From NCBI GenBank assembly GCA_022564545.1, contig JADFLG010000001.1, positions 1 to 64,000 of the forward strand: a stretch of DNA of 64,000 bases. The letters are read 5' to 3'. The position numbers and the translations under genes were made by a program. Shown piece by piece: positions 10,501 through 14,773 of this stretch; position 1 is the first letter of the stretch, and the number at the start of each line of letters is the position of its first letter. This DNA is from Chloroflexota bacterium. GTDB lineage: Bacteria; Chloroflexota; Dehalococcoidia; Lucifugimonadales; Lucifugimonadaceae. Below the pieces are notes generated by a model. It had not been told where the DNA came from and made no database searches. It worked only from the letters and a program-made list of their open reading frames with translations.

Positions 10501-12600
10501 TTATTCAATCGCCGCCGGTCGTTGGCGGGCAGATCGTCGCCACGCGTACAAACCCAGTATCAGAATGACCCCGATCAGAACCCAAACAAGTTGCTGAACT
10601 GGAACGACCTGTTCGATAACGCCTGCAGGTGCACCGAACTGTTCCAACAACTCAAGCCGCTGTTGCAGATTCGCGATTTGACTCTCCTGGGCCGCTATCT
10701 GGGCTTCCCTCTCGTCCACTATCTGGTAGAGACCCTGGATCGCCGCCAGCGCCACACCGTCTGCATCTACCACACTGATGCGCCGCTCGTCCTCGCCCAC
10801 GCCGAATGCCGCCGCGAAATCCTGAGCTGCCGGGCCGATGTGCCGCACGCCATCCTGGGTCTTGTAGCTGTATGTGGCGATCGGAACGCCAAGCAGCCGT
10901 TCGAGGATCTCCCTTTGATTCACCGCCGAGAAGTTGGTTTTTGCGTTGCGGTCGCTGAGCGATGAGAAGGACCCGGAGCCAGCAGGCAGAGTCACACCGG
11001 TGGTTGCGCCGGGGTCCGAGAAAAAGGTCATCCCACCGGATGCACGTACAACGAACTGGTCAGGCCCGGTCGATGAAAGTGCCGAACCGGTCGAGTCGGC
11101 CCACACGAACGTCCCGTTGTCGACCGCTTTGGCCTTGAGACCGGCCGCGACGCTGAAAGCGCCAGAAGCCTCATTCTGCTGGCCTCCGGGGACCGTTGAG
11201 TACAGCCCGCTCGCCAGGTTGTCCTTACCGCCACCAACGGTAGCCCACCGGCCGGAAGACGTGTTCGACTCACCGCCGCCAACGGTGGCGAACTCGTCAC
11301 TTGCCGCATTGCCCGCGCCACCGCCCACGACCGAGGATAATCCTCCGGCAGTGTTGAATCCCCCGCCGCCGACCGTCGATCTAACGCCAGCGGCGGTGTT
11401 GCTGTCGCCGCCGCCAATGCTCGCACTACCACCGTAGGTCTCGTTGAACTGACCTCCCCCAATAACCGACAAAGCTCCACCTGCGTAGTTCTCTTCGCCT
11501 CCACCAATTGTGGTGGTCGACGCGTCGGCAAGGTTGAAAAAGCCGCCTCCTATCGTCGCTCCAGTTTCGAACGCTTCATTGAAAGCGCCACCGCCTATCG
11601 TCACGTTTTCCGCAAAAGCAACGACAGAGTTGCTGCTGTCACCACCTATCACGTTCGGACCGCCAACCTTCGGCTCGAGCCTGAAGGCCCGGACGCCATT
11701 TACGAAAAACTCGAGCGGCTGGTCGTCGGTCGTTCCAACGAAATCGATCCCGGCGGTCGTCCCTGCGTTGCCGTCAAGGGACCACGTGCCGGCCCCGGTG
11801 GACGGAAGACCGGCTGACCCTGGTTTTCCTTGAGGTCCTTCAATGCCAGGCGCACCAGGAGCACCGTCAGCGCCTGCTGGTCCTGCCGGTCCCGTTGGTC
11901 CGCCGGCGCCCGCCGGACCGAAGATCGCCCAGGAAATCGCGGTTTCATTCTGCTTGCAATCCAGTGGGCCATCAACGATTCGGATGTTTTTCTTCTTGGC
12001 ACAAGCGTGGATGGTGTCGGCACTCGCGGTACTGTCGGCAGCCCCGGAGGCCTCACCGTTGTACTGCATGATCAGCTTTTGTGGGTCGCCGAGCTCACAG
12101 AGAGGTCCCGAAAAATCCCCGGCGTCTTCTCCCTCGTCGTTGACGAAACCCACGATCACGAGACTTCCAAACTGGTCCCCCAGGGTCAGGTCCCGGGAAC
12201 AGGACGTGTGAAACTCAACCGTCTGGATGAGTTCGTCCGCATTCGAGTTCGGTGGGGCACTGAAGACGAACACGTGCGTGGTCGACGAAAGCTTAGTCGA
12301 TCCTGCCAGCAAAGCATCGATAGTGAACTCTCCGCCAAGCTCGACAATTCCGTCGAACCAAACTTTGGCGGCAGGGTCGCTCGGAGCGGACTTATTGGTC
12401 GCCAGAATGCGTACCGGAGTAGTGAACGCCGGGTCGCCGGTCACAATAACTTTTTTGTCGCCGTTGTGGTCGTCCCCGCCACCGCCCTGGCTTGGGTTGG
12501 CGAACACGTCGCCACCAACCGTGAAGATAGCGGCTGCGACACCCAACAGCGCTACGAAACGAACCACGTCCAGGAATCTGATCGATGTGAAGAAACGCAT
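10501..12600 (-). CDS. Large surface protein: signal peptide, collagen stretch, YadA-like head repeats, S74 chaperone domain, C-terminal membrane anchor
   Basis: The 699-residue product starts with a hydrophobic signal segment (VALLGVAAAIFTVGG). A beta-rich domain follows (about 45-220) that ends with the motif CKQNETAISWAIFGPAG, often seen just before bacterial collagen repeats. A short collagen run (GPAGPAGADGAPGAPG) comes next. About ten copies of a ~15-residue GGGxxNxA(S/G)G repeat like the YadA/trimeric-autotransporter head span about 320-480. An intramolecular-chaperone peptidase S74-type domain begins SDRNAKTNFSAV, with a helix containing LAAIQGLYQIV. A coiled coil follows, then one C-terminal membrane helix (VWVLIGVILILGLYAW) and basic residues. 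I infer a trimeric, membrane-tethered fibre displayed outside the cell. Confidence 0.85.
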   Translation of the reverse strand: MRFFTSIRFLDVVRFVALLGVAAAIFTVGGDVFANPSQGGGGDDHNGDKKVIVTGDPAFTTPVRILATNKSAPSDPAAKVWFDGIVELGGEFTIDALLAGSTKLSSTTHVFVFSAPPNSNADELIQTVEFHTSCSRDLTLGDQFGSLVIVGFVNDEGEDAGDFSGPLCELGDPQKLIMQYNGEASGAADSTASADTIHACAKKKNIRIVDGPLDCKQNETAISWAIFGPAGAGGPTGPAGPAGADGAPGAPGIEGPQGKPGSAGLPSTGAGTWSLDGNAGTTAGIDFVGTTDDQPLEFFVNGVRAFRLEPKVGGPNVIGGDSSNSVVAFAENVTIGGGAFNEAFETGATIGGGFFNLADASTTTIGGGEENYAGGALSVIGGGQFNETYGGSASIGGGDSNTAAGVRSTVGGGGFNTAGGLSSVVGGGAGNAASDEFATVGGGESNTSSGRWATVGGGKDNLASGLYSTVPGGQQNEASGAFSVAAGLKAKAVDNGTFVWADSTGSALSSTGPDQFVVRASGGMTFFSDPGATTGVTLPAGSGSFSSLSDRNAKTNFSAVNQREILERLLGVPIATYSYKTQDGVRHIGPAAQDFAAAFGVGEDERRISVVDADGVALAAIQGLYQIVDEREAQIAAQESQIANLQQRLELLEQFGAPAGVIEQVVPVQQLVWVLIGVILILGLYAWRRSARQRPAAIE

Positions 12601-12825
12601 TTGAGACTCTCCCCGAACGTCACTGAGACAGACGCTCGATAACTACCCGTTATGTCGCGGTTCGGTGATTCTAATACGTTCCCGACCCTCTGGCTGCGGC
12701 ATGTGATCGGTCGGCATTCGCCGCAAAAGACAGCATTTCCCTCGGACGAAACCCCTTGCCTGTGGACGGCGGAATCCGTACTGAAATTCAGCAGTACGGA
12801 TTCCGCCGACAGCTACAATCCATCC
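12601..12825. other. Divergent upstream region
   Basis: Lies between the minus-strand surface-protein gene and the broken NUDIX copy on the plus strand. Its main feature is the 16-bp perfect inverted repeat at 12768-12807. No gene is visible. Confidence 0.6.
12768..12807. repeat. Perfect 16-bp inverted repeat
   Basis: Arm GGCGGAATCCGTACTG (12768-12783) pairs perfectly with CAGTACGGATTCCGCC (12792-12807) around an 8-base loop. It sits upstream of both flanking genes, so it does not look like a simple terminator. There is no T-tract. It could be an operator, a cruciform or a small element remnant. Confidence 0.9.
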
Positions 12826-13215
12826 ATGACCCACGACAAAAGCGAACCTCCGTGGCTTCGTTGGGGGCAGGGAATTGCAGGCGATAGCCCAGAACGGCCT
12901 GGCGTTTGATGCAAATCCGTACGATGTAGAGCGCTGTCAGCAAATCCGTTCGATCGCCGCCGAAATGATTGCCCCACATGTCGATGCTGATGCGGACACC
13001 GTAGTCGACTACTTTCTGCAAGAGACCGGCTACGCGACGCCAAAGCTCGACTGCCGCGGCGTTGTCTGGAACCCCGACGGCAAGGCCCTGCTCGTCAAAG
13101 GGACTGCCGACGAAAAATGGACTCTGCCCGGCGGGTGGATGGACGTCAACCTGACGCCCGCGGAAAACGTCGAGCGAGAGATTCTGGAGGAGTCAGGACT
13201 CACCACTCGCTCAAA
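12826..13215 (+). pseudogene. Broken duplicate of the NUDIX hydrolase at 14144
   Basis: From about 12811 to 13206 the sequence is nearly identical to 14129-14525, including the upstream AGCTACAATCCA block and the ATG. One extra A at 12869 shifts the frame after the WLRWG motif. An in-frame TTG at 12875 could restart translation just past it. Homology stops abruptly right after REILEESGL, inside the Nudix box, and unrelated sequence follows. The second half of the catalytic domain is therefore missing and the product cannot be a normal enzyme. The intact paralogue lies 1.3 kb downstream, on the far side of the VTT-type gene. Confidence 0.88.
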
Positions 13216-14068: not shown

Positions 14069-14143
14069 GCGAACGCCACGTAGTGCAACATCGTCCCATT
14101 GCTTCACGTCTGATTCGGTGTTGCCAATAGCTACAATCCAACC

Positions 14144-14773
14144 ATGACCCACGATAAAAGCGAACCTCCGTGGCTTCGTTGGGGGCGGGAATTGCAGGCG
14201 ATAGCCCAGAACGGCCTCGCGTTTGATGCAAATCCGTACGATGTAGAGCGCTATCAGCAAATACGTTCGATCGCCGCCGAAATGATTGCCCCACATGTCG
14301 ATGCCGATGCGGATACCGTCGTCGATTACTTTCTGAAAGAGACCGGCTACGCGACGCCAAAAATCGATTGCCGGGGCGTTGTCTGGAACACCGATGGCAA
14401 AGTCCTGCTCGTCAAAGGGACTGCCGACGAAAAATGGACGCTGCCCGGGGGATGGATGGACGTCAACTATTCACCTGCAGAGAACGTCGAACGGGAGATC
14501 CTGGAGGAGTCAGGCCTCGCCACTCGGGCGACGAGAATAATCGCCCTGTATGACAAACGAAAACACTACCATCGCATCGTTCACATCTACCAGGTCTTTT
14601 TCGAATGCCTGCTGATAAGCGGTGAACTCCGTACGAGCACCGAGACATCAGACGTCGGGTTCTTTGGCCGGGACGAGATTCCAGAACTTTCTCTCGAACG
14701 TGTATCTCCGGATCAACTCACGCAGGCATTTCACTTCCACGACAACCCGGACGCCCCCCTAATATTCGATTGA
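14144..14773 (+). CDS. NUDIX hydrolase with N-terminal Nudix_N domain
   Basis: Hydrolyses nucleoside diphosphates linked to another moiety. The first ~65 residues (WLRWGRELQAIAQNGLAF, then DVERYQQIRSIAAEM) match the Nudix_N domain found in ADP-ribose/CDP-choline-type hydrolases. The Nudix box GGWMDVNYSPAENVEREILE lies at about 122-141, with the REILEESG metal ligands intact. The usual first Glu is replaced, as is common in this subgroup. The putative -10 box TACAAT (14132-14137) lies 6 bases before the ATG and there is no Shine-Dalgarno, so the message may be leaderless. A truncated, frameshifted duplicate lies at 12826. Confidence 0.9.
   Translation: MTHDKSEPPWLRWGRELQAIAQNGLAFDANPYDVERYQQIRSIAAEMIAPHVDADADTVVDYFLKETGYATPKIDCRGVVWNTDGKVLLVKGTADEKWTLPGGWMDVNYSPAENVEREILEESGLATRATRIIALYDKRKHYHRIVHIYQVFFECLLISGELRTSTETSDVGFFGRDEIPELSLERVSPDQLTQAFHFHDNPDAPLIFD

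Follow-up and report, generated by a model that had tools for sequence, protein, structure and literature searches.

The Peptidase_S74 domain is best known from phage fibers. In MyRF and in the phage proteins, the chain is cut on the N-terminal side of a serine, and the reaction requires both a lysine five residues further on and assembly into a trimer (PMC8326128, PMC3742443, PMC3828593). Cleavage of MyRF is abolished by S587A and by K592A (PMC8326128), and MrfA lacking its transmembrane (TM) segment still cuts itself, slightly more slowly (PMC3828593). In MYRF and MrfA a trimeric cargo is followed by an ICA/S74 domain with the Ser–Lys dyad, a coiled coil and a single TM segment, and cleavage frees the N-terminal trimer from the membrane (PMC3742443, PMC8326128, PMC3828593). 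The phage chaperones (endosialidase CIMCD, T5 pb1 and phi29/GA-1 gp12) have the same S74 core with Ser-x4-Lys at its N-terminal edge, a beta stalk ahead of it and a coiled coil behind.

The window, a 64,000-nucleotide stretch from a Chloroflexota bacterium (contig JADFLG010000001.1), encodes a protein that resembles both groups. Its cargo would be an extracellular fiber in an N-out topology, whereas that of MYRF is a DNA-binding domain, and a Pfam scan of the window protein finds no Ndt80-type DNA-binding domain. Unlike the phage versions, which belong to the virion and lack a membrane anchor after the chaperone, it is encoded on the chromosome and carries a signal peptide and a TM helix. A literature search for an S74 fiber with a TM tether found no description, and a trimeric fiber of this kind is apparently undescribed in the literature searched.

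Architecture and setting of the window protein

The domain order, the dyad, the TM helix and the export signal are evident from the sequence (Table 1). The original prediction of a composite fiber is borne out: the chain combines a signal peptide, the CKQNETAISW motif, 13 Gly-X-Y triplets, nine head repeats with degenerate copies, an S74 domain and a predicted TM helix. The Ser/Lys pair proposed at SDRNAK is present as S549-D-R-N-A-K554, with the +5 spacing of the reference dyads (endoNF S911/K916 and MyRF S587/K592), and the anchor does follow the chaperone. The DUF7467 module goes beyond what had been proposed.

Table 1. Features of the S74 fiber gene, with residue numbers and positions in the window
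Feature	Residues	Positions	Strand	Basis
Whole gene, 699 aa	1-699	10501..12600	(-)	ORF from ATG; extent exact
Signal peptide	1-35	12496..12600	(-)	Hydrophobic core ~7-34, ends VFA|NPS; sequence and hydropathy
DUF7467 (PF24269), N-terminal, membrane-distal	44-152	12145..12471	(-)	Pfam, 80.5 bits, cut-off 27
CKQNETAISW motif ahead of collagen stretch	215-224	11929..11958	(-)	Sequence
Collagen-like stretch, 13 Gly-X-Y triplets	228-266	11803..11919	(-)	Triplets plain in sequence
YadA/UspA1-type head repeats	~319-490	11131..11646	(-)	phmmer and sequence period
Beta stalk directly before predicted cleavage site	491-548	10957..11130	(-)	Strands in AlphaFold2 model m543bac4ee865
Peptidase_S74 / intramolecular chaperone core	549-599	10804..10956	(-)	Pfam and fold match to MyRF ICA 7dc3
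Catalytic Ser549, predicted cut N-terminal of it (L548|S549)	549	10954..10956	(-)	Sequence, conservation
Catalytic Lys554	554	10939..10941	(-)	Sequence, conservation
Coiled-coil helix, 47 residues	610-656	10633..10773	(-)	AlphaFold2 helix, model residues 124-170
Predicted TM helix, hydrophobic core 671-687	668-691	10528..10599	(-)	AlphaFold2 and hydropathy
Basic tail RRSARQRPAAIE, presumably cytoplasmic	688-699	10504..10539	(-)	Sequence

Peptidase_S74 (PF13884) scores 37.2 bits in the Pfam scan, against a cut-off of 22, and 41.7 bits in the genome search. Pfam Collagen reaches 19.4 bits over the triplets, under its cut-off of 27.2; a linker separates the triplets from the head. In the head region, nine [IV]GGGxxN copies start between residues 335 and 455 (span 335–469) at a spacing of exactly 15 residues, degenerate copies flank them and the region matches the UspA1 head (3pr7) at E 2e-27 (phmmer). 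These 15-residue repeats are shared with the trimeric autotransporter adhesins YadA and UspA1, which are held in an outer membrane by a beta-barrel anchor, whereas the window protein has one alpha helix and an S74 assembly module. Identity with a trimeric autotransporter was rejected because the Pfam scan finds no YadA_anchor family at E<=1, the TM segment is alpha-helical and the host genome has no Omp85 match.

The C-terminal membrane helix of the original prediction also holds up. The segment has a Kyte–Doolittle peak of 2.29 over 19 residues, which a shuffled tail equals in 2.4% of 10,000 cases, AlphaFold2 places one helix there, and a TM helix lies at the same place in relatives that are 81% and 52% identical (L003 and L004). 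Most TM relatives carry three to five Lys/Arg residues after the helix. AlphaFold2 was run on residues 487–699 with 49 sequences (locus sequences only, three plasmid rows being left out) and gave a single chain with a mean pLDDT of 90 in the order stalk, S74, long helix, TM helix.

The gene lies on the chromosome among housekeeping genes (RNase J, FabD-like, NusB, YceD and HAD), and no phage genes are found among the tested neighbors. It is the only S74 gene that a profile search finds in this genome (2.9 Mb, 93% complete). The protein is rare in its bacterial family (3 of 76 genomes), and across the phylum 20 of 400 Chloroflexota genomes have an S74 domain of any kind. Both family relatives, on contigs L035 (genome G034) and L026 (genome G031) of Chloroflexi MAGs in the casp150 set, have the CKQNETAISW motif. 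We also note that the closest relative (L003/L035) has a frame break at ~4040–4075 of L035, between DUF7467 and the collagen part, which may reflect either faulty sequencing or genuine disruption of the gene.

A prophage or phage-derived tail fiber stranded in the chromosome would account for a domain so typical of phage fibers, and 23 phage records give weak matches that cover at most 45% of the query. The listed phage matches are, however, only 34–46% identical and confined to the core, and close relatives across bacterial chromosomes share a family-specific core. Together with the signal peptide, the TM helix and the housekeeping neighbors, this makes a phage origin scarcely credible.

Dyad and anchor among relatives

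To place the anchor among relatives, the S74 core was located in each ORF by profile, and a TM segment was called where a 17-residue Kyte–Doolittle mean reached at least 1.4 behind the core. The sample was seeded with twelve Chloroflexota C-termini, followed by named loci; loci from Verrucomicrobiota, from the class of the Anaerolineales genome G473 and from plasmids were added. The 144 distinct cores comprise 67 from Chloroflexota, 71 from other named groups and 6 from unnamed bacteria, in a starting sample biased by a query alignment of mostly anchored Chloroflexota proteins, with later draws made by phylum. A TM segment follows the coiled coil in 48 of the 144, all of them among the 67 Chloroflexota cores, and behind none of the 71 cores from other named groups or the 6 from unnamed bacteria (Fisher p 6e-22 for Chloroflexota versus other named groups, uncorrected for kinship). 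Further draws of 246 Planctomycetota and 199 Acidobacteriota genomes contributed another 28 proteins, all of them lacking a TM segment, bringing the other named groups to 0 of 99. Where the host of a sampled relative is named, the anchor is thus confined to Chloroflexota, a point beyond the original prediction, and the S74–coiled coil–TM layout is recurrent in that phylum as judged from sequence.

The association is not absolute. Nineteen Chloroflexota members have no TM segment, and on the best tree the TM label requires 19 changes, of which strongly supported branches make at least four unavoidable, so the anchor was gained or lost more than once; the tree rests on few columns, and a kinship-aware test of TM against phylum is underpowered, with three pairs. 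The sampled haloarchaeal (two) and actinomycete (three) members have no TM segment. L205, an IMG/VR contig classed as viral and of unknown host, encodes an S74 domain with an intact dyad, a short coiled coil and a TM segment with a basic tail, and is the sole anchored form outside named Chloroflexota among those sampled. Two further 'TM' flags from the IMG/VR scan (L247 and L259) were discarded because they stem from stray alignments to the profile that score close to zero.

The unanchored S74 fibers of Verrucomicrobiota, Planctomycetota, Acidobacteriota and others, annotated as 'tail fiber domain-containing protein', have a signal peptide, an intact dyad, the same core (up to ~60% identical over the core) and often head repeats, but they end with the coiled coil. 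A signal peptide-like start is found in 19 of 20 complete TM ORFs and 57 of 67 complete unanchored ORFs. Anchored and unanchored forms are thus alike exported, which suggests that the family commonly ends up with a product free of any membrane anchor. An N-terminal lipid anchor as a general substitute in the unanchored relatives was rejected, a lipobox being present in just 6 of the 67 complete ORFs.

Head repeats occur in 44 of the 48 anchored proteins, and in 5 of these proteins collagen triplets do too. The original claim that the combination is unusual is therefore too strong, the more so since Pithovirus-like giant viruses already have proteins annotated as collagen, YadA-head and S74.

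The dyad is more uniform than the anchor. Both residues are invariant in the anchored proteins (Ser 48/48, Lys 48/48), and the unanchored forms retain Ser in 95 of 96 (one Cys) and Lys in 96 of 96, or 143/144 and 144/144 overall, while loop positions 4, 5 and 7 near the dyad are variable. The equal invariance in the two forms indicates the same constraint on both. It is also what would be expected if the anchored forms use cleavage, and it supports cleavage there, short of proof. Cys replaces the catalytic Ser with Lys kept in L086 (Planctomycetota), and Cys is also found in several IMG/VR copies.

The difficulty for an uncut trimer, in which S74 merely trimerizes and the fiber remains a covalently anchored surface adhesin, lies in this conservation: such a protein has no evident reason to keep Ser and Lys, yet both are invariant in 48 anchored proteins with a variable loop. 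A TM helix right after the chaperone would lend itself to permanent anchoring and the head repeats are adhesin-like, but on balance we regard an uncut tether as distinctly unlikely.

Possible release, retention or sorting

The reading we prefer, to which we give about an even chance, is that of a homotrimeric fiber that is made tethered to the membrane, cuts itself before S549 and so loses its covalent membrane anchor. Trimerization, cleavage, release and adhesion are all steps that we infer. The signal peptide would export the chain and then be removed, and the C-terminal helix would halt in the cytoplasmic membrane with the N-terminus out and the basic tail in. The tether would hold the protomers together during trimerization of the coiled coil and the S74 domain, which would fold the beta stalk, the head repeats and the collagen rod. 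A correct trimer would put Ser549 and Lys554 in register for self-cleavage before Ser549. Residues ~36–548, with DUF7467 at the free end followed by collagen, head and stalk, would then form a stable trimer that no covalent bond ties to the membrane, and the membrane would keep a stub of 151 residues made up of chaperone, coiled coil and TM helix. The original prediction reasoned correctly that cleavage, if it occurs, would free the fiber since the anchor follows the chaperone. The likely role would be that of a surface or extracellular attachment fiber with DUF7467 and the head as its binding parts; for DUF7467, binding is a guess.

The same dyad and TM data apply equally to a fiber that is cleaved but retained, with the trimer either docked to the S74/coiled-coil stub in the membrane or trapped by the cell wall. 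The cleaved halves could stay bound non-covalently. A docking base would give a purpose to a TM helix kept past cleavage, and the C-terminal oligomer of MYRF likewise remains in its membrane (PMC3742443). The chaperone–fiber interface of phage T5 is modest, however (-12 kcal/mol), and T5 pb1 sheds its cleaved chaperone, which the authors propose unmasks its binding site (PMC4690869). Moreover, the unanchored family members have no docking base. We consider retention unlikely, though well worth keeping in mind.

It is also conceivable that the helix and basic tail are a sorting signal, cut by a sortase or exosortase with attachment of the protein to the envelope. The TM segment with its Arg tail has the general shape of such signals. 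The tail of L028, a Thermoflexales relative, matches NCBIfam PFE-CTERM (25.4 bits versus a cut-off of 24), which hints at true sorting signals in some members of the family, and the genome of the window has an XrtG-like exosortase at 91 bits, under the cut-off of 102.75 (L175:708-1412). That gene, however, adjoins its own candidate substrate with a TM segment and an Arg tail, together with a glycosyltransferase-like gene, and the window protein and its tail match no NCBIfam sorting family. The genome of the window (G000) has no sortase match; G034 and G031, which encode the same protein, have a sortase and no exosortase; and neither enzyme was found in G196 (97% complete, with an anchored form), some of the genomes compared being incomplete. 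Self-cleavage upstream would in any case render attachment futile, and we regard sorting as very unlikely.

If the preferred reading of tethered assembly followed by self-cleavage is true, S549A is predicted to keep the fiber on the membrane. The family member Haur_5099 lies on a plasmid of the cultured Herpetosiphon aurantiacus, which could offer a native system provided that it proves to have an anchored copy.

Envelope context and kinship with other S74 proteins

Omp85 was not found in any of 12 Chloroflexota hosts, including that of the window, and all 10 hosts outside Chloroflexota have it. Its absence is consistent with a cell that lacks a standard outer membrane. Chloroflexota share a monoderm gene pattern, although their ultrastructure and envelope type are debated (PMC8871954). 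In such a cell the tether may substitute for a confining periplasm. This would not be a strict rule, since the haloarchaeal and actinomycete members sampled, and some from Chloroflexota, are unanchored.

A Foldseek search with the single-chain model ranks the MyRF ICA (7dc3) first (prob 1.00, E 0.003), with the chaperone of phage GA-1 (3gud) in fourth place (E 0.28); the E-values are weak, probably because the model represents one chain of an intertwined trimer. The top rank of 7dc3 suggested descent of MYRF from the bacterial S74 family. We rejected this because MyRF is detected far better with a profile of phage S74 domains (E 1e-14) than with that of the bacterial family (4e-3). With MyRF closer to phage S74, the shared order of S74, coiled coil and TM segment is best read as convergent. 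Extending the preferred reading to Chloroflexota S74 fibers as a group, the TM helix would hold exported chains until they have trimerized and self-cleavage would shed the fiber, convergent with the release of MYRF from the ER; we hold this generalization tentatively, at somewhat under even. If it is true, bacteria use a phage assembly trick to build and shed trimeric fibers with no need of an autotransporter pore in an outer membrane, and a human transcription factor came to the same domain order independently.

The nearest viral models to the window protein are Pithovirus-like giant-virus proteins, with TM-scores of 0.60–0.68. The BFVD entries A0A481ZDH5, A0A481ZG68 and A0A481ZFW2 (Pithovirus LCPAC404/406) are named as collagen-repeat, YadA-head or S74 proteins, and these, like Solivirus proteins of the same kind, have the same fiber modules but are viral. 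Fiber modules are thus shared with viruses, and the likeness may reflect fiber exchange between bacteria and giant viruses.

Other exported proteins of the family also contain DUF7467 in tandem copies, and some of these proteins have Tat-type starts. The AlphaFold2 model of the window DUF7467 (pLDDT 66, ten sequences) has no convincing match in the PDB. At its N-terminus this copy is without the first strand known from other copies; a similar strand, QKLIMQYNGE, lies 3' of the domain (~12030–12060) and could be a permuted or exchanged strand.

Upstream of the fiber gene, the start of a Nudix hydrolase gene occurs twice (12805–13163 and 14123–14480), in copies that are 91–93% identical and ~1317 bases apart, with a VTT-domain gene between them. 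The reading frame of the first copy diverges past the repeat, which suggests a partial tandem duplication.
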